Assembly: GCA_902168115.1 (NCBI GenBank)
Contig: CABHPB010000080.1
Location: 1 to 64,000, forward strand
Reading direction: 5' to 3'
From: an uncultured Methylopila sp.
Lineage (GTDB): Bacteria; Pseudomonadota; Alphaproteobacteria; Rhizobiales; Methylopilaceae
DNA: 64,000 nucleotides
Shown: positions 24,412-59,986 of the stretch, in pieces
How the letters are laid out: the number at the start of each line of letters is the position of its first letter
Position numbering within the stretch: position 1 is the stretch's first letter
Translations under genes and position numbers: made by a program
The notes under the pieces: model-generated
Told to the model about the DNA's origin: nothing
The model's input: only the letters and a program-made list of their open reading frames with translations
Databases searched by the model: none

Positions 24412-26364
24412 ATGGCGGCGTTGCGTAGGCTCAGACACGGCTTTCCGTCGCCAAGACTGTTGGTGGCCGGAGCCGTTTGCGCGCTGGTCGCCGCCGCTCA
24501 CGCCCAGCCGGCGCCGGACGGCCCGCCTCCTGCCGCAGCCGCGGCGGTTCCGGGCGTTTCCTATGTCACCAGCTTCCAGGTCGACGGCGCCGACAAGGAC
24601 GTCGAGAAGATCGCGACCGAGACCTCCTCGCTGAAGACGCTCGAGAAGGAGCCGCCGCCCGGCCCGCCCGGTCTGGTCGGCCGCGCCAAGGCCGACATCG
24701 AGCGAATCTCGGCGGCGCTGTCCGCCACGGGGCGCTACGGCGCGATCGTCGACGTCACCGTCGGCGGCGTTTCCGCGACGTCGCAGAGCGCGCCGGACGC
24801 CGCGCAGCGTTCGCGCAAGCCGGTGCCGGTGGTCGTGGTCGTCCATCAAGGGCCGGTGTTCACCTTCGGCTCCGTGCGCGTGCAGCCGCTCGACGGGCCG
24901 TCGTCCCGCATCGACTACAATCTGCGAAAAGCCGGTCTCGAACCCGGCAAGCCGGCGCCGTCCGCCGTGATCTTCGCGGCCGAAGGCCGGATCGTCGACC
25001 AGCTCCGCGCCGACGGCTACCCCTTCGCCGCCACCAAGGGCCGCGACGCGACCGCCGACCACACGCGCAAGCAGCTCGATCTCGTCATCAAGGTCGCCGC
25101 CGGCCCGCGCGCGCCCTTCGGCGAGGTGACGGTCTCGGGCACGAAGGAGGTCGACCCGCGCGTCGTGCGCGGCCGCGTGCCGTTCAGGCCGGGCGACCAG
25201 TACGATCCGGAAAAGGTGCGCGAGCTCCGCGAGGAGATCGCCAAGCTCGACGTGTTCTCCTCCATCCGCATCCGCGAGGCGGAGAAGCCGGACGCGTCCG
25301 GCCGGGTGCCGATCACTGTCGAGGTCGAGGAGAAGAAGTTCCGCTACGTCGGCGCGGCCGCCAAGTGGGACTCGATCGACGGCGCCGGCGTCAACGCCTA
25401 TTGGGGCCACCGCAACCTGTTTGGCGGCGCCGAGAAGCTGAGGCTCGACGCGGGCGTCGGACGGCTGATCACCAACAAGCCGGCCGAATACGAGTACCAG
25501 CTGCGGGCGCAGTTCGAGAAGCCGGGCGTCATCACCGGCTTCACTGACTTCCTGGCCGAGGTCGAGGCGCTGCGCGAGCGCACCGACGCCTACTGGCGCG
25601 ACGGCATCCGCGGCCAGGTCGCGCTCCGCCAGCGCGTCACCAGCGACCTGTCGATCCAGGGCGGCCTCGAGGTCGAGGCCTCCGACATCCGCGACACCAT
25701 CGGCCAGAAGACCTACCTGCTCGCCGGCGTGCCGTTGAGCGCGACCTTCGACAACACCGACAACAAGCTCAATCCGAGCGAGGGCGTGAAGCTGACGGTC
25801 GCGGCCGCGCCCTATTTCAACGCGCAGGGCGACCAGAAGTCGCTCAACATCTTCAAGGCGCAGATCTCGTCCTACTTCGCCTTCGACGAGGACGGCCGCT
25901 TCATCCTCGCCGGCAAGATCGGCGCGGGCTCGATCGTCGGCCCGAGCACGACCGCGGACGTCCCGGCCAACAGGCGCTTCTTCGCGGGCGGCGGCGGCTC
26001 GGTGCGCGGCTTCGCCTACCAGAGCGCCAGCCCGTCCTGCAAAGAGAAGTTCCCGGTCCCAAGCCACGCCCTGACCTGCAACGACGACCAGCCGTTCGGC
26101 GGCCGCAGCCTGCTCGAAAGCTCGATCGAGGCGCGCATCAAGATCACCGACACGATCGGCATCGTGCCCTTCGTTGACGCCGGCGCCGCCTTCGACAAGA
26201 CCTATCCCGACTTCAAGGAAGACATCCGCGTCGGCGCGGGCGTCGGGCTGCGCTACTACACCAGCATCGGCCCGATCCGCTTCGACGTCGCGACGCCGGT
26301 CATGGGCCGCACGAGCAACGATCCGCGCGTGGCCTTCTATGTGTCGATCGGGCAGTCGTTCTGA
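24412..26364 (+). CDS. tamA: Translocation and assembly module TamA (BamA/Omp85 family)
   Basis: The 650-residue outer-membrane protein has a signal peptide (LLVAGAVCALVAAAHA). Three POTRA-like domains cover about residues 45-320. The Omp85 beta-barrel follows from about 330, with FAGGGGSVRGFAYQS (the conserved RGF loop) and FVDAGAAFDKTYPD. It ends in a C-terminal phenylalanine, as barrel substrates of BAM do. With TamB it forms an envelope-spanning complex for barrel assembly and lipid transport. The stop codon overlaps the tamB ATG by one base. The start at 24412 is preferred because an upstream ATG in another frame stops at once. Confidence 0.95.
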   Translation: MAALRRLRHGFPSPRLLVAGAVCALVAAAHAQPAPDGPPPAAAAAVPGVSYVTSFQVDGADKDVEKIATETSSLKTLEKEPPPGPPGLVGRAKADIERISAALSATGRYGAIVDVTVGGVSATSQSAPDAAQRSRKPVPVVVVVHQGPVFTFGSVRVQPLDGPSSRIDYNLRKAGLEPGKPAPSAVIFAAEGRIVDQLRADGYPFAATKGRDATADHTRKQLDLVIKVAAGPRAPFGEVTVSGTKEVDPRVVRGRVPFRPGDQYDPEKVRELREEIAKLDVFSSIRIREAEKPDASGRVPITVEVEEKKFRYVGAAAKWDSIDGAGVNAYWGHRNLFGGAEKLRLDAGVGRLITNKPAEYEYQLRAQFEKPGVITGFTDFLAEVEALRERTDAYWRDGIRGQVALRQRVTSDLSIQGGLEVEASDIRDTIGQKTYLLAGVPLSATFDNTDNKLNPSEGVKLTVAAAPYFNAQGDQKSLNIFKAQISSYFAFDEDGRFILAGKIGAGSIVGPSTTADVPANRRFFAGGGGSVRGFAYQSASPSCKEKFPVPSHALTCNDDQPFGGRSLLESSIEARIKITDTIGIVPFVDAGAAFDKTYPDFKEDIRVGAGVGLRYYTSIGPIRFDVATPVMGRTSNDPRVAFYVSIGQSF

Positions 26365-29300
26365 TGGCGATCCTCAAGCGCGCCCTGATCGTCCTCGCGA
26401 TCCTGCTGCTGATCCCGGTGGTCGTGCTGGCCGCCGCTTTCGCCTACATGACGACCGCGCACGGCCTGTCGACGATCGCCTCGGTCGCGTCGAAATACGC
26501 CAGCTCCGACGACACCAAGATCGCGATCGGCGACATTGAGGGATCGTTTCCCTACGACCTGACGCTGAGGGACGTGAAGCTCTCGGACCGCAAGGGCGAG
26601 TGGCTGACGGTCGACCGGGCGCGCGTGGTGTGGTCCCCGCTCCAGCTCTACTCGCGCAAGCTCACCGTCGACCTGGTCGACGTCGGCAGGGTCGAGGTCG
26701 CGCGCCAGCCCGACTATCCGGAAGCGAACGAGCCGGTCGCGCCGCCAGATCCCAACGCGCCGCTGTTTCCGCAGCTGCCGATCGAGATCAAGCTCGAAAA
26801 ATTCCTGCTGGCGGACCTCGGCCTTGCCGAGCCGGTGATCGGGACCGCCGCCCGGCTGACCGCGAGCGCGGCGGCGACCGTTCGCCAACCCAAGGACGGC
26901 GTCTCGGCCGAGTTCGACGTCCGCCGCACCGACGGCACGAAGGGCCAGTTCGCCGGCCGCGCCCGCTTCGTCCCGGCGACCAACGGCGTCGAGATCTCGC
27001 TGCGCGGTTCCGAGCCCGCCGGCGGCCTCGTCGCGCGCATGGCGAACATTCCGGGCCTGCCGCCGGTCGATATCGGCATGGACGGCGCGGGCACGCTCGA
27101 CGCGCTCCGCACCCAGCTCGTCGTCACGGCCGGCACGCAGGGGCGGATCGACGGCGCGGCGGAGGTCAAGAGGGAAGGGCAGGGCCGGCGCGTCACGCTC
27201 GACCTCAACGGCTCGCTCGCCGGGCTCGTCCAGCCGGACGTCGCGCCGCTGGTCGACGGCATGAGCAAGGTCTCGGCCGAGGGCGTCGTGCCCGACAAGG
27301 GACCGATCCAGATCGTCCGCGCCGACGTCGGTGTCCCCGCCGCGCGGCTGAGCGCGCGCGGCAGCGTCGACACCGAGGCCGAGACGCTCGACGTCTCCTA
27401 CGACCTCACCGCCGGGGACGCTGCGCGCTTCGCCAGACTGCTGCCGGGCGTTTCCTGGGTTTCGGCGAGCGGACGGGGAACCGCGAAGGGTCCGATCGAC
27501 CATCCCGAGATCCGCGCCAGCGTCGACGCCGGCGGGCTCGTCGTTCCGCAGGGCTCGTTCCAGACCGCGAAGGTCGATCTGACCGCGATGCCCGACGGGC
27601 CGCTGTCGCAGGACACGACCAAGGTGAAGGCGCTCGTGACGGGCGAGGCCGACGGCGTGAAGTTCGCCGACGACCGCATCTTCGCAGGCGGCCGCAAGTT
27701 CACCCTCGCGCTCGACGCCACCAGCAGCCTCAAAGGCGAGGCGGACATCCGCAAGGCCGACGTCAGCCTTGCCGACGTGCGCGCGAGCTTCGTCGGGCAG
27801 GCCTCGCCGGAGGCCGTGAAGGGCAAGGCGACGGTCAACGCCGCCGATCTGTCGACGCTCGCGCCGGCCGCCGGCATGCCGCTCGCGGGCGCGCTGGATC
27901 TCGCCGCCGATCTCGATGTCGCCCTCGACATGTCGCGGCTGAACCTTTCCGCCAACGGCACGGGCTCGGGCCTTGCCACGGGCGTTCCTCAGGTCGACGC
28001 GCTAACCGGCGGCGACCTTGCGATCAAGGGCGGCGTGACCCGCGCCGAGGACGGCTCGATCGTCTTCCGCGACTTCGATGCGCGCGGGGAGCACATCGTC
28101 GTCACCGCGAACGGCGCGGTCACAGACGCGCGGGCCGACGCCAAGATCCTCGCCGAGATCGACGACCTGTCGAAGGTCGACGGGCGCGCCGCAGGCGCCG
28201 CCAAGGTCACGGCCGATCTCACCGGCAAGCTCGACGACCTCGGCCTCAAGGCGGTGGTCTCGATCCCCGAGGGCAAGGCGCTCGACAAGACGCTCAAGGA
28301 CATCGAGGTCAAGGTCGACGCGACCGATGTCACCGGCTCGATCGCCGGGACGCTCGCGCTCGCGGGTTCGCTCGACGGCAAGGCGGTGAAGGGCGGCGGC
28401 CGGCTGCGGACGGACGGCGAGGTGCGGCGGATCGAGGGTCTCGACCTTGCGATCGCGCAGACGACCGTGACCGGCGACGTCGCGGTCGCGCCAAAGGGTC
28501 TCGCCGACGGCAAGCTCGCCTTCGCCTCGCCGGACCTCTCCGAGATCGGCGCGCTCGCGCTCACCGAACTCGCCGGCAAGGTCAGCGGCGACGTCGCGCT
28601 GTCGTCCGAGGGCGGCGTGCAGCGCGCGATCGTCAAGCTGCAGGGGACGGACATCGCAGCGCCGGGCGTGACGCTCGGCTCCATCGACGCAAACGTCACC
28701 GCCGTCGACCCGGCGGGCAAGCTGACCCTGGACGGCACGATCAACGGCCGCTCGATCGCCGCCGGCGGCCAGGCGATCGACGATCTCGCGGTCGTCGCCA
28801 AGGGCGCGCCCGACGGGATGGACGTCAATCTCGACATGGCGTCGAGGGCGCTGGGCTCGTCCGCCAAGGCGGACGCCCGCGTCGTCTACGCGCCGAGCGA
28901 GACCCGCATCGAACTCCGCAAGCTCGACCTCGCCGGCGGCGGCAAGACCGCCTCTCTGACCGGGCTCGCGCCGGCCGAGATCCGGCTCGCCGACAAGACC
29001 GTCCGGATCACCGGCTTCTCGCTGAGGTCGGGCGAGGGCGGCGTGCTCGACATCTCCGGCGAGGCGGGCGAGCAGCTGAACCTGAACCTCGGCCTGCGCG
29101 ACCTGCCGCTCGCGCTCGGCAACGCCTTCACGCCGGGCCTTGGCCTCTCGGGCGCGGCCGGCGGCGACGCGCTCGTCACCGGCCGTGCGGACGATCCCAA
29201 GGTCGCCTTCAACCTCTCGGTCGCGGAGCTGACCGTCGACAAGCTGAAGAACGCCAAGGTCCCGCCGCTGACCGTCGTGACAAAGGGCCTGCTCGAAGGC

Positions 29301-32300
29301 GGCCGCGTCGGCACGACCACGACCGTCACCGGCGCCAACGGCATCGACGCCGTGATCGATGGTTCGGCGCCGCTCGGCGACGGCGACCTCGACATGAATG
29401 TCCGCGTCCGCAACCTGCCGCTCGCGCTCGCCAACGTGGTCCAGCCCGAACTCGGCTTCGGCGGGCGGATGGAGGCCGACGCGCGCGTCACCGGCTCCGT
29501 GCGGGAGCCGAACGGGACCTATCGCGCGAAGGTGTTCGACTTCACCTCGACCAATGCGCGCGGCGTGCCGCCCATCCTGCTCGACGCCAAGGGCGAACTG
29601 CAGGGCAAGCGCGTCACCACCGACGCCCGCATCTCGGGCGGCGGCGGCCTTGGCTTCGCGATCGAAGGCTCCGTCCCGATCGCGCAGAACGCCGGCGACA
29701 TTGATCTCGCGGTCGCGATCCGCGAGCTGCCGCTGGCGCTCGCCAACGCCTTCGCTCCCGACCTCGCGCTCGCCGGCATGGCGCGCGGCGACGTGCGCGT
29801 CAGCGGACCGGTCGACGCCCCGCGCGGCAACTACAACCTCCGGGTGACCGGCCTGTCGGGCGCGCCGCTGAAGGGGCTGCCGGCGCTGCAGATCGACACG
29901 CGCGGCGCCCTACAGGGCCGCAGCGTGACGACGCAGACGACGGTCGTCGGCGGCGGCATCGACGTCGCTGCCAATGGCGTCGCGCCGCTCGGCGACGGCG
30001 ACCTCGACATGACCGTCGCGATCCGCGACCTCCCGCTCAAGCTCGCCGACGCCTTCCTGCCGGAGGCCGCGCTCGGCGGCGGACTGCGCGGCACGGCCCG
30101 TATCACCGGACCGGTGAAGACGCCGAGCGGGACCTACGACCTCACCGTCTCCGACCTCACCTCGGCCCGCGCCCGCGGCGTGCCGGCGCTGAACGTGGTC
30201 GCGCGCGGCGAGCTCCAGCCGAAGGCGGTGACGACCGACGCGTTGGTCACCGGCGGCGGCGGCATCGAGGCGACCGCCAAGGGCTCCGCGCCGATCGGCG
30301 AGGGCGACCTCGACATAACGGTCGGCCTCAAGTCATTCCCGCTCGCGCTCGCCAACGCCTTCGCGCCGGACCTCGGCCTCGACGGCGTGGCGCAGGGGAC
30401 CGCGAAGATCGCCGGCCCCGTGAAGACGCCGCGCGGCGCCTACGACCTCGCCGTCTCCGGGCTGAAGACCGCCAAGGCCAAGGACGCGCCGCCGCTGCAG
30501 GTGCTGGCGCGCGGCGAGCTTCAGGGGACGCGCGTCACCACCGACACCTCGGTCACCGGCGCCGGCGGCCTCAACGTCTTCGCCAAGGGCTCCGCGCCGC
30601 TCGGCGACGGCGACCTCGATCTTGGGGTCACGATCCGCGAACTGCCGCTCACGCTGGCGAACGCGGTCAAGCCGGAGCTGGGTCTCGGCGGCGTCATGCG
30701 CGGCGACGTGACCCTCAAGGGCCCGGCGAAGCGGCCGATCGGGTCCTACAACCTCACCGTCGCCGACCTCGTCGCGGCGCAGGCCAAGTCCGTGCCGCCG
30801 CTGCAGGTCGCGGCGAAGGGCGATCTGCTGGGCGAGCGCGTGACGACGGACGCCTCCGTCACCGGGCAGGGCGGGATCAGCGTGACGGCCAAGGGTTCGG
30901 CGCCGATCGGCGAGGGCGATCTCGACATGGCGGTGGCCATCCGCGAGCTGCCGCTCGCGCTCGCCAACGGCTTCAAGCCGGAGCTCGGCCTCGCCGGAAC
31001 GCTGCGCGGCGACGCCAAGGTCAACGGCCCTGTCTCGGCCCCGCAGGGAACCTACGACCTCACCATCGCCGACCTGACCGCGACGCCCGCGCGCGGCGTG
31101 CCGGCGCTCCAGATCGCGACCAAGGGCGCGCTCGAAGGAACCCGCGTCACAACCGACACCAACGTCACCGGCGGCGGCGGCATCCAGCTGTCCGCCAAGG
31201 GCTCGGCGCCGATCGGCGAGGGCGACCTCGACATGGCGGTCGCGATCCGCGAACTGCCGCTTGCGCTCGCCAACGCTTTCAAGCCGGAACTCGGCCTCGC
31301 CGGGACCCTGCGCGGCGACGCAAAGGTGGCCGGGCCGCTCAGCGCGCCGCGCGGAACCTACGACCTCAGCGTCACCGGCCTCACGGCGGCGCAGGCCAAG
31401 GGCGTGCCGGCTCTCGAGATCGTCACCAAAGGCGCGCTCGAAGGCGACCGCGTCACGACCGACACGAGCCTGAGCGGCGGCGGGGGCGTCAACCTGACCG
31501 CCAAGGGCTCGGCTCCGCTCGGCAAGGGCGACGTCGACATGGCGGTCGCGATCCGCGAGGTGCCGCTCGCCATCGCCAACGCCTTCGCCCCCTCGCTGGG
31601 CCTCGGCGGCAAGCTCAGGGGCGACGTGAAGGTCGCCGGACAAGTGACCGCGCCGCAGGGGACTTACGACCTGACCGTCGAGGACTTGACAGCCGCGCAG
31701 GCCAAGGGCGTGCCCGCGCTGCAGATCGTCTCGAAGGGCACGATGGAAGGCCAGCGGGTGACGACCGACACCGCCGTCACGGGCGGCGGCGGGGTGCGCC
31801 TCACCGCCAAGGGCGCAGCGCCGATCGGACAGGGCGACCTCGACATGGCGGTCGACATCGCCGAGGTCCCGCTCGCCATCGCCAACGGGTTCTCGCCGGG
31901 CCTCGGGCTGACGGGCAAGCTCGCGGGCAATGCGAAGGTCACCGGCCCGATCTCGGCCCCGGCCGGAAACTACGACCTGCGCGTCACCGGCCTCACCGCC
32001 GCCGCGGCGAAGGGCGTGCCAGCGCTCCAGGTGGTCTCGAAGGGCGATCTCGGCGGCGGCCGCGTCACCACCGACACCAACGTCACCGGCGGCGGCGGCA
32101 TGCGCGTCGTCGCCAACGGCTCCGCGCCGCTCGGCGAGGGGCCGCTCGACGTCTCGGTGCAGATCCGTAGCGTGCCGTTGTCGCTCGCCAACGGCTTTTC
32201 GCCGGGCCTCGGCGCCAACGGGACGCTGCAGGGCGACGCCAAGATCGGCGGCACCGTCGCTGCGCCGGCCGGAACCTACACGCTCAAGGTCACGGGTCTG

Positions 32301-33776
32301 TCGACGCAGGCGACCCGCGGCGCCGGCGTGCCGGCGGCCGCGATCGACTCCAAGGGCCGGCTCGAAGGCAAGCGCGTGTTCACCGACACGGTCGTCACCG
32401 CCCCGAGCGGGATGCGCGTGACGGCGAACGGCTCGGCGCCGCTCGGCGCGGGCGACCTCGACCTCAAGGTCGCGGGCCGCGCGCCGCTCGGTTTCCTGAA
32501 CGACACGCTGTCGGTGTCCGGCGACCGGGTCGACGGGACGGTCAACTTCGACGTCAAGGTCGGCGGCGCGACCTCGAGCCCGCGGATCAACGGGACCGGC
32601 AACCTCGCCAACGCCTCCTACTTCAACCGCGCGGCCAACCTGCAGCTGAAGGGCATGGCGGCCTCCGTCTCGGCTAACGGCACGAACATCGACGTGTCGA
32701 GCTTCCGCGCGACAACCCGCAACGGCGGCTCGCTGTCGGGCTCGGGACGGGTGGCGGTTGATCCGGCCCGCGGCTTCCCCGGCCAGATCAACTTCAAGGC
32801 CTCGAACGCCGAGGTGATCGGCACCGACATCGTGACCGCGATCACTGACGCGGACCTCAGGCTAGAAGGGCCGCTCGCCCGCCGGCCGGTGGTCAACGGC
32901 ACGATCCGCACCCGCTCGATCGAGATCCAGATCCCGGACCGCATCCCGGCGGCCTATACGCCGCTGCCGGAGGTGAGGCACAGGAACGCGCCGCCGGCGG
33001 TCATTCGCCAGACCAAGGTGCTCGACGCCGGCAAGGGCAAGGGCGGCGGCGACGCCGACGCCTTCCTCGCGACGCTGAACATCGACGTGCAGGCCGAGAA
33101 TCGCATCTTCATCCGCGGCATGGGCATGCAGGCCGAGGCCGGCGGCCAGATCAAGATCACCGGCACGTCCGCCAAGCCGATCCCGATCGGCGCCTTCGAC
33201 CTCCGCTCCGGGCGGAGCTCGATCACTGTGATCGGAAAGCGGCTGAACTTCACCCGCGGGCAGGTCGGCTTCGCGGGCGATCTCGACCCGACGCTCGACT
33301 TCCTCGCCGAGACGCCGGCGACCGGGCTGACGGCGCAGGTCGTCATTACCGGCAACGCGTCGCGGCCGAAGATCGAGTTCACCTCGAACCCGGTCGTGCC
33401 GCAGGACGAGGTGCTGTCGCGCCTGCTGTTCAACAAGTCGTCCGGCGAGCTCTCGACCAGCCAGGCGCTGACGATCGCCCAGGCCGTCGCGCAGTACAGC
33501 GGCGTCGGCGGCGGCGGGGCCGGGCCTCTCGAGGGGCTGAGGAAGGGCCTTGGCGTCGACACGCTCGACATCGCCGCCGGCGACGGCGGGGGCGCCGGGC
33601 TCGGGGTCGGAAAGTATATTTCCGACAACATCTATCTGGGCGTAAGGTCGGGGACGACGCCCGAAAACACGGGAGTGACGGTCGACATCGACCTCACCAA
33701 GAACATCAAGGCGCAGGGGATGGCTGGCGCGGCGGGCAACACGTCGGCTGGCGTCGCCGTCGAGTGGGACTACTGA
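26364..33776 (+). CDS. tamB: Translocation and assembly module TamB, repeat-expanded
   Basis: The 2470-residue protein is an AsmA-like bridging protein with an N-terminal membrane anchor (ALIVLAILLLIPVVVLAAAF). A long beta-rich body runs to about residue 2200. The C-terminal TamB/DUF490 domain has NRIFIRGMGMQAEAGGQIKI, RGQVGFAGDLDPTLDFLAE, VVITGNASRPKIEFTS and DEVLSRLLFNKSSGELS. Residues about 911-2037 form eleven consecutive copies of a unit of 101-104 residues. TamB proteins I know are roughly 1250-1500 residues, so this one is far longer. It should span the periplasm as a hydrophobic groove joined to TamA, which is encoded immediately upstream. Confidence 0.95.
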   Translation: MAILKRALIVLAILLLIPVVVLAAAFAYMTTAHGLSTIASVASKYASSDDTKIAIGDIEGSFPYDLTLRDVKLSDRKGEWLTVDRARVVWSPLQLYSRKLTVDLVDVGRVEVARQPDYPEANEPVAPPDPNAPLFPQLPIEIKLEKFLLADLGLAEPVIGTAARLTASAAATVRQPKDGVSAEFDVRRTDGTKGQFAGRARFVPATNGVEISLRGSEPAGGLVARMANIPGLPPVDIGMDGAGTLDALRTQLVVTAGTQGRIDGAAEVKREGQGRRVTLDLNGSLAGLVQPDVAPLVDGMSKVSAEGVVPDKGPIQIVRADVGVPAARLSARGSVDTEAETLDVSYDLTAGDAARFARLLPGVSWVSASGRGTAKGPIDHPEIRASVDAGGLVVPQGSFQTAKVDLTAMPDGPLSQDTTKVKALVTGEADGVKFADDRIFAGGRKFTLALDATSSLKGEADIRKADVSLADVRASFVGQASPEAVKGKATVNAADLSTLAPAAGMPLAGALDLAADLDVALDMSRLNLSANGTGSGLATGVPQVDALTGGDLAIKGGVTRAEDGSIVFRDFDARGEHIVVTANGAVTDARADAKILAEIDDLSKVDGRAAGAAKVTADLTGKLDDLGLKAVVSIPEGKALDKTLKDIEVKVDATDVTGSIAGTLALAGSLDGKAVKGGGRLRTDGEVRRIEGLDLAIAQTTVTGDVAVAPKGLADGKLAFASPDLSEIGALALTELAGKVSGDVALSSEGGVQRAIVKLQGTDIAAPGVTLGSIDANVTAVDPAGKLTLDGTINGRSIAAGGQAIDDLAVVAKGAPDGMDVNLDMASRALGSSAKADARVVYAPSETRIELRKLDLAGGGKTASLTGLAPAEIRLADKTVRITGFSLRSGEGGVLDISGEAGEQLNLNLGLRDLPLALGNAFTPGLGLSGAAGGDALVTGRADDPKVAFNLSVAELTVDKLKNAKVPPLTVVTKGLLEGGRVGTTTTVTGANGIDAVIDGSAPLGDGDLDMNVRVRNLPLALANVVQPELGFGGRMEADARVTGSVREPNGTYRAKVFDFTSTNARGVPPILLDAKGELQGKRVTTDARISGGGGLGFAIEGSVPIAQNAGDIDLAVAIRELPLALANAFAPDLALAGMARGDVRVSGPVDAPRGNYNLRVTGLSGAPLKGLPALQIDTRGALQGRSVTTQTTVVGGGIDVAANGVAPLGDGDLDMTVAIRDLPLKLADAFLPEAALGGGLRGTARITGPVKTPSGTYDLTVSDLTSARARGVPALNVVARGELQPKAVTTDALVTGGGGIEATAKGSAPIGEGDLDITVGLKSFPLALANAFAPDLGLDGVAQGTAKIAGPVKTPRGAYDLAVSGLKTAKAKDAPPLQVLARGELQGTRVTTDTSVTGAGGLNVFAKGSAPLGDGDLDLGVTIRELPLTLANAVKPELGLGGVMRGDVTLKGPAKRPIGSYNLTVADLVAAQAKSVPPLQVAAKGDLLGERVTTDASVTGQGGISVTAKGSAPIGEGDLDMAVAIRELPLALANGFKPELGLAGTLRGDAKVNGPVSAPQGTYDLTIADLTATPARGVPALQIATKGALEGTRVTTDTNVTGGGGIQLSAKGSAPIGEGDLDMAVAIRELPLALANAFKPELGLAGTLRGDAKVAGPLSAPRGTYDLSVTGLTAAQAKGVPALEIVTKGALEGDRVTTDTSLSGGGGVNLTAKGSAPLGKGDVDMAVAIREVPLAIANAFAPSLGLGGKLRGDVKVAGQVTAPQGTYDLTVEDLTAAQAKGVPALQIVSKGTMEGQRVTTDTAVTGGGGVRLTAKGAAPIGQGDLDMAVDIAEVPLAIANGFSPGLGLTGKLAGNAKVTGPISAPAGNYDLRVTGLTAAAAKGVPALQVVSKGDLGGGRVTTDTNVTGGGGMRVVANGSAPLGEGPLDVSVQIRSVPLSLANGFSPGLGANGTLQGDAKIGGTVAAPAGTYTLKVTGLSTQATRGAGVPAAAIDSKGRLEGKRVFTDTVVTAPSGMRVTANGSAPLGAGDLDLKVAGRAPLGFLNDTLSVSGDRVDGTVNFDVKVGGATSSPRINGTGNLANASYFNRAANLQLKGMAASVSANGTNIDVSSFRATTRNGGSLSGSGRVAVDPARGFPGQINFKASNAEVIGTDIVTAITDADLRLEGPLARRPVVNGTIRTRSIEIQIPDRIPAAYTPLPEVRHRNAPPAVIRQTKVLDAGKGKGGGDADAFLATLNIDVQAENRIFIRGMGMQAEAGGQIKITGTSAKPIPIGAFDLRSGRSSITVIGKRLNFTRGQVGFAGDLDPTLDFLAETPATGLTAQVVITGNASRPKIEFTSNPVVPQDEVLSRLLFNKSSGELSTSQALTIAQAVAQYSGVGGGGAGPLEGLRKGLGVDTLDIAAGDGGGAGLGVGKYISDNIYLGVRSGTTPENTGVTVDIDLTKNIKAQGMAGAAGNTSAGVAVEWDY
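29094..32474 (+). repeat. Eleven tandem repeats of about 306 bases inside tamB
   Basis: Units begin at 29094, 29406, 29718, 30021, 30327, 30633, 30939, 31245, 31551, 31857 and 32163, with eight of ten spacings exactly 306 bases except two of 312 and one of 303. Each starts with a variant of IRELPLALANAF and contains GTYDLTV, KGVPALQ, RVTTDT, VTGGGG and KGSAPIGEGDLDM. Units 6-9 are most alike. Many differences between neighbouring units fall at third codon positions, so the protein pattern is conserved more than the DNA. Confidence 0.93.
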
Positions 33777-34280: not shown

Positions 34281-35090
34281 GTGAGGCGGCTTCGGGCCGT
34301 CCGGGCGGCTTTCGTGGCGTGGTGTGTCGCGGCGGTTCCGCTGAACGAGGCGGCGGGCGGCGCCTTCACCCTCGAACCCGGCGAAACCAAGATGTTCCTG
34401 ACCGGCGTGTTCAACGCCGGCGACCATTACTTCGACTCCGACGGCCGCCTCAGGAAGCGCGAGACCTACCGGAAATACGACCTCCAGCTCTATGCCGAGC
34501 ACGGCCTGAAGGACGGTCTGACCGCCTTCGGCTCCGCCGGCCTTCAACGCATCCGCGCCAAGGACGGCGCGACCTTCGAGCGCGAAGGCCTCGGCCGCAC
34601 GGAGCTCGGTTTGCGGCAGCGAATTTTTGAGCGCGACGGATGGATCGTCTCGGCGCAGGGCTCGGCGGTGATCGCCGGCGCGAAGAAGGGGCCGAGCGTC
34701 GCCGTCGTCGGCGAGACCGACGACCAGCTCGACGGACGGTTGCTGATCGCAAAGAGCTTCGAGGTCTTCGGCAAGCCGGGCTTTCTCGATCTCGCCGGCG
34801 GCTACCGGCTGCGCGGCGGCGATCCGGCCGACGAGATCAGGGTCGACGCCACGCTCGGGGTTAGGATCGCGCCGCGCTGGCTGCTGATGGCGCAGAGCTT
34901 CAACACCATCGGGACCGGGACATGGTCGGGCCGGTATCGGCTGCGCCAGCGGATCTACAAGGCGCAGGCCTCCGCGATCTTCGACCTGACCGAGCGCTGG
35001 TCGCTGATCGGCGCGGCCTTCGTCACGCCGGCCGGAGAGGACGCGCTCGACGAGCGCGGCGCAACGCTCGGCGTCGGGCTGCGCTTCTGA
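34281..35090 (+). CDS. Putative outer-membrane beta-barrel protein
   Basis: The 269-residue protein begins at GTG with a signal peptide (RAVRAAFVAWCVAAVPLNEAAGG). The mature region consists of alternating polar and hydrophobic strands, for example KYDLQLYAEHGLKDGLTAFG, LGLRQRIFERDGWIVSAQGS, LLIAKSFEVFGKPGFLDLAG and ATLGVRIAPRWLLMAQSF. It ends with a Phe (VGLRF), the hallmark of barrels folded by BAM. I do not recognise the family. It follows tamB and the Hpt gene on the same strand and is convergent with the glycerophosphodiesterase gene, three bases away. Confidence 0.75.
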   Translation: MRRLRAVRAAFVAWCVAAVPLNEAAGGAFTLEPGETKMFLTGVFNAGDHYFDSDGRLRKRETYRKYDLQLYAEHGLKDGLTAFGSAGLQRIRAKDGATFEREGLGRTELGLRQRIFERDGWIVSAQGSAVIAGAKKGPSVAVVGETDDQLDGRLLIAKSFEVFGKPGFLDLAGGYRLRGGDPADEIRVDATLGVRIAPRWLLMAQSFNTIGTGTWSGRYRLRQRIYKAQASAIFDLTERWSLIGAAFVTPAGEDALDERGATLGVGLRF

Positions 35091-54387: not shown

Positions 54388-55333
54388 TGGGCAGGTGCCT
54401 GGCGAGCGCTTCGAGGACGGCCATGCGCACGGCGACGCCCATCTCGACCTGGTCGCGGATCAGCGAGCGCGGGCCGTCTGCGACTTCCGAGGCGATCTCG
54501 ACGCCGCGGTTCATGGGACCTGGATGCATCACGACGGCGTCGGGCTTGGCGTAGGCGAGCTTCGCCGCGTCGAGGCCGAAGCGCGCAAAATACTCCTTCA
54601 CCGACGGCACGAAGGAGCCGTTCATCCGCTCGAGCTGCAGGCGCAGCATCATGACGACGTCGACGCCCTCGAGCCCGGCCTTCATGTCCCGGTAGGCTGT
54701 GACGCCAAGACGCTCGACGCCCGCGGGAAGGAGGGTCGAGGGCGCGACGACCCTGACCTCGGCGCCGAGCGCGTTGAGCAGGATGATGTTGGAGCGCGCC
54801 ACGCGGCTGTGGAGCACGTCGCCGCAGATCGCGACCTTCAGGCCCTCGATCCGGCCCTTGGCGCGGCGGATCGTCAGCGCATCGAGCAGCGCCTGCGTCG
54901 GGTGCTCGTGCGCGCCGTCGCCAGCGTTCACCACCGAGCAGTCGACCTTCTGGGCGAGCAGCGCCACGGCGCCCGCCGCGTGATGACGCACGACGATGAT
55001 GTCCGGGCGCATCGCGTTCAGCGTCGCCGCCGTGTCGAGCACCGTCTCGCCCTTCTTGAGCGAGGAGGAGGCGACCGACATGTTCATCACGTCGGCGCCG
55101 AGGCGCTTGCCGGCGATCTCGAAGGACGACTGGGTCCGGGTCGAGGCCTCGAAGAACAGGTTGATCTGGGTGCGGCCGCGCAGCGAGGCGCGCTTCTTCT
55201 CGACCTGCCGCGACAGGGCGACGTCCTGCTCGGCGGCCGCGAGCAGCCCCTCGATGTCGGACGGGGACAGTCCCGCGATCCCGAGCAGGTGCCGGTGCGG
55301 GAACGCGAACGGGTGGTCCGGTTCGGGGCTCAT
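54380..55333 (-). CDS. pyrB: Aspartate carbamoyltransferase catalytic subunit
   Basis: The 317-residue enzyme makes carbamoyl aspartate in pyrimidine synthesis. The carbamoyl phosphate motif is [20 protein letters not shown]. Others are [26 protein letters not shown] and [14 protein letters not shown]. The ATG at 55333 (MSPEPDHPF) gives a normal PyrB length; the frame is open 109 codons further upstream without similarity. No pyrI is present, consistent with a PyrB-PyrX type complex. It heads pyrB-pyrX-plsY-dprA. Confidence 0.95.
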
Positions 55334-55526
55334 CAAGGCCGCTCTCTTAAGGCCCAGCGCGCGGCTTCCGCAAGTCCGCCATGGGGTTGTCCACTTTGCG
55401 CGCGACCTTATCTCCCTTGAGGGACGAAGATCCGGCTTCGGCGGCCGAAAACCGCAGGGTCGGGTCCCGTGCGACGTGAAAATCGTCGCGTGTGGTGGGG
55501 CGCACCGCTCGCCAGGAGGCATCAAC

Positions 55527-56027
55527 ATGAAGTCGCTTAACACCGCCCTGATCGTCGGCGCATGCGCGCTCGGCGTGGCGGCGACGCCCGCGTCGGCCGA
55601 GTCCGGCCAGCGGAGCAAGCCGTCGACCAATTCGGTCGCCGGCATTTCGATGAAGGACATCCAGGAAGTCGGTCGCGGCTGGGGCGGCGGCGGCCGCGGG
55701 TTCAGCGGTCGCGGCTGGGGCGGCCGGGGCTACGCCGGTCGCGGCTGGGGCTACCGCAGCGCCGGCTGGCGCGGACGCGGCTGGGGCTACCGGCGCGGCT
55801 ATGGCTACCGCCGTGGTTACGGCTGGGGTCCGTATGTCGCGGGCGCGGCGATCGCCGGCGTCGCCGTCGGCGCAGCCGCCGCGAGCCCGTACTACTACGA
55901 CGACGACTACTACGATGAGGGCTACTCTCCCCGTCGCGTCTATCGCGGCGCCGAGTGCCAGGTCATCAGCCGTCGCCACGACGTCGACGGCCGGCCGGTC
56001 AAGGTGATCCGCTACCGGCCCTGCTGA
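55527..56027 (+). CDS. Secreted Gly/Arg/Trp/Tyr-rich repeat protein
   Basis: The 166-residue protein starts at ATG behind AGGAGG and has a signal peptide ([17 protein letters not shown]). Residues about 50-105 are short repeats of the type [16 protein letters not shown] and [14 protein letters not shown] hydrophobic segment ([20 protein letters not shown]) and a DDDYYDEGY stretch follow, and the C-terminus has two cysteines ([12 protein letters not shown]). This resembles small glycine-rich secreted proteins of Rhizobiales, often with a BA14K-like or YXXXD tail. Function unknown. Confidence 0.82.
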
Positions 56028-58423: not shown

Positions 58424-59986
58424 GTGGCGAACATCACGGGCTCGAAACGCGACGACTTCATCCACATCCGCGGCGACGGCAGGACGCCGCCAGAGGGCGC
58501 CAAGAACATCGCCCAGGCGACCGAGGGCGACGACAGGATCGCCGGCGGACGCGGCGACGACACGATCTTCGGCGGCGGCGGGGACGACGTCGCCAGCCTC
58601 AACATCCTGAAGCATGGCGCGGACGCGATCGATCTCGGCTCGGGATCGGACGTGATCGAGGTCGACGCCGGCAAGCCGACCGAGGTCCGGCTCACCTTCA
58701 CCTCAGCGGAAGTCGGCAACGGCTCGGCGACCGACTCTGGAACGCTCGCCAACCAGGACGGCGGGCTGGCGGTCCGGATGCAGGCCGAGAACGCCGCGGG
58801 CGAGCTCAAGGGTCCGATCGCGCGCACTGACGACGAGGGCGTCACCTTCGTCGCGGACGAGGGGATGACCTTCGACGTCCGGGATCTGGTCTCAGGCGTC
58901 GAGAGAGGCGCCGAGTTCGAGGTGGTCACGCTCGGCACGCAGGCCGGCGAGGAACTGACCGCGGTGGAGGGCAAGCGGCCCTACTACATCAACGCCGGGC
59001 AGGGCGACGACACGGTGACGGGCGGCGTCGCCAACGACTTCCTCGTCGGCGGCGCGGGCCTCGACATGCTGAGCGGCGGCAAGGGCGACGATTCCTTCAT
59101 CGGCGGCGGCGGCGACGACAGGATCTTCGGCGGGCGCGGTGCCGACAACGCGATCTTCGCCAACATCGCGACCGACGGCGCCGACAGGGTCAATCTTGGC
59201 TCCGGCGCCGACACCGTCACGGTGAACGCGGCGGCGCCGACCGAAGTGCGGCTGACCTTCACCTCCGCCGAGATCGGCAACGGCGTCGTCGACGATTCCG
59301 GAACGCTGGCCAACCAGGACGGCGGCCTCGCGGTCCGCATGCAGGCCGAGGACGGCTCGGACGGCCTGACCGGACCGGTCAGTCGGATCGAGGACGAGGG
59401 CGTCACCTTCGTGGCCGGCGCTGGGGTCAAGTTCGACGTCCGCGACCTCGTCTCCGGAACAGCGCGCGGCGACGACTTCGAGGTCGTGACGCTCGGCTCC
59501 AAGAACGACGATGCGCTTGAAGCGCGCGACGACGCCCGCCCGACCTACATCAACGCCGGGATGGGCGACGATACGGTGACCGGCGGTGACGTCGCCGACT
59601 TCCTCGTCGGCGGCGCCGGCGACGACGTGCTCGATGGCGGAAAGGGCGCCGACAGCTTCATCGGCGGCGTCGGGTCCGACAGCTTCAATTTCTCGACGAA
59701 GCTCGGCGCGGACAACGTCGATACGATCGTGGACTTCGCCGTGGTCGACGACACGATCGGTCTCGACGCCAAGGTGTTCGAGGGCCTGGACAAGGGCGCG
59801 CTGGACGCCGACGCCTTCGTCATCGGAACGGAGGCGACGGACGAAGACCACCGGATCATCTACGACGACGCGACCGGAAACCTGCTATTCGACCGCGACG
59901 GCTCCGGCGGCAAGTTCGACGCGGTCGCCTTCGCCAAGCTCGGCGCCGGCCTTGCCGTGACCGAGGAGGATTTCCTGATCGCCTGA
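58424..59986 (+). CDS. RTX-type calcium-binding repeat protein with internal duplication
   Basis: The 520-residue protein has hemolysin-type nonapeptides (GGRGDDTIFGGGGDD, GGKGDDSFIGGGGDD, GGAGDDVLDGGKGAD) expected to bind calcium outside the cell. There is no N-terminal signal, and the C-terminal 90 residues (ADNVDTIVDFAVVDDTIGLD, LLFDRDGSGGKFDAVAFAKL) are like those of type I secreted proteins. Residues 36-230 and 231-417 are two copies of one module that contains LTFTSAE(V/I)GNG and LANQDGGLAVRMQAE. The start is GTG. No HlyB/HlyD/TolC genes are nearby. A hairpin terminator follows. Confidence 0.9.
   Translation: MANITGSKRDDFIHIRGDGRTPPEGAKNIAQATEGDDRIAGGRGDDTIFGGGGDDVASLNILKHGADAIDLGSGSDVIEVDAGKPTEVRLTFTSAEVGNGSATDSGTLANQDGGLAVRMQAENAAGELKGPIARTDDEGVTFVADEGMTFDVRDLVSGVERGAEFEVVTLGTQAGEELTAVEGKRPYYINAGQGDDTVTGGVANDFLVGGAGLDMLSGGKGDDSFIGGGGDDRIFGGRGADNAIFANIATDGADRVNLGSGADTVTVNAAAPTEVRLTFTSAEIGNGVVDDSGTLANQDGGLAVRMQAEDGSDGLTGPVSRIEDEGVTFVAGAGVKFDVRDLVSGTARGDDFEVVTLGSKNDDALEARDDARPTYINAGMGDDTVTGGDVADFLVGGAGDDVLDGGKGADSFIGGVGSDSFNFSTKLGADNVDTIVDFAVVDDTIGLDAKVFEGLDKGALDADAFVIGTEATDEDHRIIYDDATGNLLFDRDGSGGKFDAVAFAKLGAGLAVTEEDFLIA

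Follow-up and report, generated by a model that had tools for sequence, protein, structure and literature searches.

What sets the length of a lipid conduit that bridges two membranes, and how such conduits evolve, are questions that concern bacteria and eukaryotes alike. The locus described here lies in a stretch of 64,000 nucleotides from an uncultured Methylopila sp. (the window, i.e., the whole stretch of DNA that was analysed). Its tamB gene encodes a protein about twice as long as TamB of E. coli, which has 1259 aa (PMC8912898), and 11 tandem copies of one module can be recognised in it. It may be asked, then, how this protein has grown, and whether its length reflects the width of the envelope or is a trait of TamB itself.

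It is considered fairly probable that the locus encodes a TamA/TamB-type pair in which TamB alone has become longer, its inter-membrane groove having been extended through repeated duplication of a central module of about 102 aa. The readings weighed below, and the likelihoods attached to them, are not mutually exclusive.

The tamA-tamB pair and its tandem units

The features of the locus are the following:

24412..26364 (+): TamA-like Omp85 protein, 650 aa, POTRA and Omp85 barrel (PF01103, E 4.6e-50; PF07244, E 1.7e-17)
26364..33776 (+): tamB, ORF of 2470 aa, PF04357 at aa 2114-2469
26364..29087 (+): TamB aa 1-908, outside the array; predicted N-terminal helix at aa 2-30, then beta-rich (AlphaFold, mean pLDDT 55)
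29088..29399 (+): unit 1, aa 909-1012; unit-1 type in 12/12 genomes with an unbroken gene
29400..29711 (+): unit 2, aa 1013-1116 (unit HMM)
29712..30014 (+): unit 3, aa 1117-1217 (unit HMM)
30015..30320 (+): unit 4, aa 1218-1319 (unit HMM)
30321..30626 (+): unit 5, aa 1320-1421 (unit HMM)
30627..30932 (+): unit 6, aa 1422-1523 (unit HMM)
30933..31238 (+): unit 7, aa 1524-1625 (unit HMM)
31239..31544 (+): unit 8, aa 1626-1727; six strands and a helix in the model
31545..31850 (+): unit 9, aa 1728-1829; six strands and a helix in the model
31851..32156 (+): unit 10, penultimate type, aa 1830-1931; six strands and a helix in the model
32157..32468 (+): unit 11, last type, aa 1932-2035; type found in 13/13 genomes; six strands, a helix and a second short helix in the model
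32469..33773 (+): C-terminal 435 aa including the TamB (DUF490) domain, ending in Y (Pfam and unit HMM)

The tamB reading frame runs without interruption across 26364-33776, and its start codon overlaps by one base the stop codon of the tamA-like gene directly upstream. The match to PF04357 (TamB; Pfam) reaches E 8.5e-51 and 173.8 bits against a cut-off of 22.4 and, together with the overlapping Omp85/POTRA gene, it bears out the TamB family membership proposed in a preliminary description of this DNA. An aromatic residue at or near the C-terminus has been given as a TamB trait (PMC4494059), and the protein ends in VEWDY. The score against NF047952, the NCBI equivalog 'autotransporter assembly complex protein TamB', is 196.3 bits, below the curated cut-off of 825, and the protein is therefore filed as a member of the TamB family and not as that equivalog. 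The TamA-like protein likewise falls below both NCBIfam cut-offs, with 122.9 bits for TamA (cut-off 625) and 164.4 bits for BamA (cut-off 297). A TamA homologue is present within the sequence of the tamB locus in 40/40 relatives, a count made per locus and not as adjacency. In the N-terminal part of TamB, the AsmA match lies below the Pfam cut-off, and the predicted helix at aa 2-30, a candidate for the inner-membrane signal anchor of TamB, has ten-residue pLDDT means of just 46-60; a Pfam scan of the 2470-aa protein revealed no extra domain. On the 3' side of tamB, at 34281-35090 (+), there is an ORF of 269 aa for which neither Pfam nor NCBIfam gave a match under the thresholds applied.

A unit HMM built from the 11 copies places eleven adjacent units at aa 909-2035 (nt 29088-32468), with lengths, in order, of 104, 104, 101, 102 (seven times) and 104 aa, seven of the 11 measuring exactly 306 nt. 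Thus, the eleven head-to-tail units with a mostly 306-base period that had been read from the sequence are confirmed, and the array lies where it had been placed (29094-32474) except for a shift of 6 bases. A whole-genome run of a separate unit profile likewise gives 11 units, Tandem Repeats Finder reports 29709-32213 with a period of 306, 8.2 copies and 71% matches, and ungapped repeat families are spaced 306 bases apart in the DNA. The self-comparison of the protein that had been suggested as a check was run as an offset scan, whose best self-match, at 102 aa, scores 341, while 5 shuffles never exceeded 40, so that the array is not due to chance. Self-BLAST of the TamB proteins returned no internal match; pairwise identity between units is 37-77% in aa and 57-81% in nt.

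The structure of the units was approached with AlphaFold models resting on alignments of 5-6 rows. In the model of aa 1626-2470 (units 8-11 and the C-terminal part; 6-row alignment), ten-residue pLDDT means are 74-94 across units 8-11 and become poor, mostly <50, past about model residue 560. For 4/4 of these units the prediction is of six strands, with a short helix where the PLALANAF motif stands, and the same pattern is repeated by units 1-2 in the N-terminal model (aa 1-1116), which is weak (mean pLDDT 55). The opening 'IRELPLALANAF', previously described as one strand, appears in the model as the end of a strand followed by a short helix, and GEGDLDMAVA, proposed as the closing motif, is a common form of the unit ending, but one form only and not that of all units. 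The alternation of apolar and polar residues along the strands has a mean of 2.87, which 0/500 shuffles reach, compared with 1.52 in shuffled strands. This alternation is general and not universal, because 6/33 strands (3/24 in units 8-11) alternate less well than over half of their shuffles. A Foldseek search against the PDB gave one match with E <= 0.001, ApoB at 1.8e-4; the others were mostly weak, to ApoB and beta-barrels, and TamAB (9xdc_B) ranked 29 with E 0.13.

Unit number among relatives and history of the array

A search with PF04357 found TamB in 13/13 genomes of the window's genus, with stop-to-stop frames of 1478-2771 aa, and TamB proteins of 1281 and 1444 aa in the two other genera of the family (18 family genomes in all). 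When the unit HMM was applied to 41 TamB proteins (40 relatives and that of the window), 12/13 genus genomes gave the series 4, 4, 4, 6, 6, 9, 10, 11, 11, 11, 11 and 12: twelve units in G012; 11 in G000, G001, G007 and G010; 10 in G005; 9 in G006; 6 in G003 and G011; and 4 in G002, G008 and G009. A separate profile, which covered 11 of the genus genomes, agreed with the HMM count in every one of them. The gene of the thirteenth genome, G004 (Chenggangzhangella methanolivorans; L021, 3998-11076), is split across several frames; two of its units are complete, another spans a frame change and there are seven others, which makes about 10. This genome is 88% complete and in one contig, so that sequencing errors may be more likely here than a genuine pseudogene. 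In the sister genera, represented by one genome each (G013 and G016), there is one clear unit. Three of the four genomes of sister genus g3 (G014, G015 and G017) show no PF04357 match, though they are 96-99% complete, their TamB being either lost or too diverged. The idea that the unit is a new domain was discarded, as it occurs in single copy in relatives, with one unit in both sister genera.

Beyond the family, a unit profile built from 15 rows was used, which counts matches wherever they lie in a genome and scores no more than 12 or 16 candidates. Among the matches listed, the unit was found in 157/297 genomes of the order. Eleven of them belong to the genus (4-11 matches), and the other 146 comprise 128 with one or two matches, 5 with three and 13 with at least four, namely 8 genomes of f18 g61 (4-7), 3 of f24 g26 (7-8), G143 (8) and G044 (4). 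In G143, the unit HMM recognises only three strong adjacent units in TamB, against the 8 profile matches. In the class, a match was obtained in 55/385 genomes, and more than two only in the window's own, although distant arrays may be missed there because the profile is tuned to the order. TamB frames >2300 aa occur, among the matches listed, in the window's genus only, other long ones reaching up to 2205 aa; the length was thus rightly described as unusual, about 2400 aa with such a unit count not being the standard of the order. TamB has also been lengthened in other ways: in L068 and L069 (G239 and G120; f24 g64) a block of about 622 residues, rather than single units, has been duplicated, while in L071, L072 and L073 (G036, G237 and G228) it reaches 1983-2053 aa without strong internal repeats. 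In these last three, the sole strong unit begins at aa 1447-1516, compared with 899 in G218, so that the extra length lies N-terminal of the unit.

The possibility that the array is an artefact of assembly or sequencing has in its favour that the genome is a draft of 154 contigs. However, DNA divergence between the copies amounts to 19-43%, a gene with 11 units is present also in G010 and in the single-contig G007, and arrays of at least 4 units are present in 13/13 genus genomes. An assembly artefact was rejected on these grounds, the wide differences between copies and the occurrence of arrays throughout the genus making it so very unlikely as to be practically negligible. As for copy number, which according to the preliminary description might vary between strains, it changes from one species to another (4-12), but close relatives, where compared, have equal numbers: 11 in G000, G010 and G007, 4 in G002, G008 and G009, and 6 in G003 and G011.

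The history of the units was followed in a tree that included 106 units from the genus and 5 from the outgroup, with few columns, unsettled bootstrap values and several middle units that do not resolve. The genus units form one clade against the outgroup units (100/98), and most of them group by position, not by genome. The unit-1 clade contains 12 rows, one per unbroken gene, from 12 genomes (97/99); the last-unit clade includes 13/13 genomes (100/99); and the penultimate-type units of both subclades join (99/91), among which unit 10 is placed beside units 3 and 5 of the species with 4 and 6 units. Species with 6 units have their units 3 and 5 alongside unit 3 of those with 4 (96/73); their units 2 and 4 belong to the clade of unit 2 of the latter (99/92), although within it unit 4 is closer to the unit 2 of the other subclade (weak, 85/74). 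Such an arrangement could be the outcome of a two-unit block duplication or, alternatively, of a loss. Since clades of unit types are common to both subclades, at least four types are older than the split between them, and the additional copies arose between the ends. A species tree from TamA and the non-array parts of TamB separates the clade with 4-6 units from that with 9-12 units.

In a wider tree of 91 units, likewise with few columns, unsettled bootstrap values and middle units that do not resolve, those of the genus again constitute one clade (97/97) and those of f24 g26 another (78/78, weak). The units of f18 g61 fall elsewhere and not as one clade, three of their five types being together (82/89) and the others near units of f11 and f14; part of this array may be an older duplication shared with f11 and f14. 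Given that the units of these three groups are separate in the wider tree, the module has probably been amplified in at least three lineages.

With regard to selection, the dN/dS of the array is 0.102 for G000/G010, 0.209 for G000/G007 and 0.219 for G010/G007; for the same pairs, the N-terminal part gives 0.138, 0.296 and 0.293, and the C-terminal part 0.058, 0.098 and 0.116. Among the 4-unit genomes, the array yields 0.046, 0.062 and 0.074, and in 6/6 pairs its value is lower than that of the N-terminal part and higher than that of the C-terminal part. Neighbouring units of the window show dS of 0.35-0.75, compared with 0.31 for the array between G000 and G010, and each pair of adjacent units has 11-30 aligned positions at which one residue is encoded by different codons. 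The orthology of units across species and the array dN/dS of 0.10-0.22 agree with the earlier proposal that the array is old and has been maintained by selection acting on the protein. A recent or hypervariable array was rejected in view of the positions conserved between species and of purifying selection. As judged from these sequence comparisons, the array is a clade-specific amplification of an ordinary single module, whose copies are old and under purifying selection.

Bridge length, envelope width and the readings compared

The spacing between strands is about 4.8 Å, and six strands per unit would thus give a rise of at most 29 Å, a figure estimated from this general spacing. E. coli TamB has been assigned a length of 178 Å when modelled and 246 Å when stretched, for a periplasm of about 260 Å (PMC11014939). 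Crude scaling from that protein leads to 14-20 Å per unit and to about 350-480 Å for 2470 aa. Because this scaled length exceeds 260 Å, the 11-unit TamB would be longer than an E. coli-like periplasm and hence bent, coiled or slack; the curved bridge contemplated in the preliminary description is close to the reading favoured here.

That description had also considered a generally thicker periplasm. If the envelope of the whole genus were thicker, TamB length would track periplasm width, and bridge length and gap width are indeed expected to match in principle, an idea offered in the literature for VPS13, in which the number of domains might be related to how wide the contact is (PMC7613979). 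However, TamA measures 629-704 aa across the 40 relatives, with 650-693 aa for the genus, whatever the length of TamB, and the second large AsmA protein of the family measures 1198-1272 aa from stop to stop in 16/18 genomes, while TamB goes from 1276 to 2670 aa, bearing in mind that the AsmA protein may not span the periplasm. The exceptions are G003, with 1402 aa, and G000, where the protein is in two pieces apparently cut by contig ends; in G007, the 1240-aa ORF matches AsmA, its YhdP match being below the cut-off. Since neither TamA nor AsmA lengthens as TamB grows, a generally thicker periplasm is not supported and was rejected as the leading reading; we regard it as improbable, and the length would be a TamB-specific trait rather than the mark of a thicker envelope.

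The favoured reading, of a groove lengthened in TamB alone, begins with what the sequences show: the sister genera have the ordinary, single-module state, further copies were inserted between end units that are conserved, and this growth from the middle has led to 4-12 units according to the species. Each modelled unit is predicted to contribute a short helix and six strands, most of them amphipathic, and the modules would continue the hydrophobic lipid groove, each adding roughly 1.4-2.9 nm. The 11-unit TamB, about twice the ordinary length, would therefore run bent, coiled or slack between the inner membrane and TamA. In E. coli, the periplasmic part of TamB is reported to bind phospholipid and TamAB to form one complex (PMC12800296). 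The extra modules would prolong the lipid groove, lipid transfer itself resting on E. coli work.

What the additional modules would be for is a more tentative matter. It is possible, with somewhat less than even likelihood, that TamB is a modular device of tunable length, acting as a conduit that bends or coils, or else at particular sites of greater width, in which the number of modules, and not the width of the envelope, sets lipid load, flexibility or reach. A serious rival, compatible with the groove reading as far as the anatomy is concerned and judged rather unlikely, is that the extra length is nearly neutral slack: TamB would already reach beyond the gap, additional modules would cost little and, on the same rather unlikely footing, unequal crossing-over would shift their number while purifying selection would only prevent misfolding or opening of the groove. 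The differences in copy number between species of one genus would fit this rival, as would the arrays in more than one lineage, the block of about 622 residues that lengthens TamB in another way in f24 g64, and a TamA that does not co-vary. On the other hand, counts are equal in close groups (11/11/11, 4/4/4 and 6/6), with an array dS of 0.31-0.51 in the first two, and many units hold their positional identity across species. A role outside the groove, in which the array would give each bridge additional sites for lipids, peptidoglycan or client proteins, is thought quite improbable: more units would presumably give more lipid or client sites, and TamB has been linked also to outer-membrane protein assembly (PMC12800296, PMC11014939), but the units are predicted as mostly amphipathic strands and no extra domain was detected by Pfam.

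Related systems and other repeats in the window

The pair resembles TamA and TamB of E. coli in its Omp85 partner, the predicted N-terminal helix, the beta-rich middle and the C-terminal DUF490 domain with an aromatic end. The YhdP/AsmA proteins belong to the same AsmA-like superfamily; unlike TamB, the large AsmA protein is of nearly constant length in 16/18 genomes. The domain of VPS13 and of the repeating beta groove superfamily consists of five strands and a crossing loop, whereas the TamB unit has six strands and a helix in the model and does not show the five-strand plus loop arrangement. TamB is compared with that superfamily for its way of working and is not assigned to it. The likeness to VPS13 lies in how the lipid bridge has grown: in VPS13, central domains situated between end types are considered to have been duplicated repeatedly (PMC7613979). 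Those events are mostly very old, while here intermediate copy numbers are alive in one bacterial genus.

TamB has been described as of relatively consistent length, with a few very long exceptions (PMC4494059, 2015), for which the portion of that article considered here gives no cause; tandem amplification of a module is described here for one group. In a literature search on TamB repeats, Methylopila TamB, bridge length and variation in the length of TamB, the array was unreported as judged from titles and the beginnings of abstracts, subscription journals lying mostly outside its scope. Here, species of the same genus carry 4, 6, 9, 10, 11 and 12 copies of a module, with largely traceable orthology, while the sister genera carry one. 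Together they would represent a living 1-4-6-9-10-11-12 series of the growth of a bridge from its middle, and this series of species makes possible a direct test of bridge length against periplasm width; no paper combining Hansschlegelia, electron microscopy and periplasm was found.

Elsewhere in the window, two further repetitive regions were observed. An ORF at 54996-56027 contains, at 55689-55926 (+), short repeats rich in Gly, Arg and Tyr (e.g., GRGW). At 58424-59986 (+), an ORF of 520 aa carries glycine/aspartate-rich nonapeptide-like repeats, which we take to resemble RTX calcium-binding repeats, and inside it DNA repeats of period 27 occur between 58526 and 59640.
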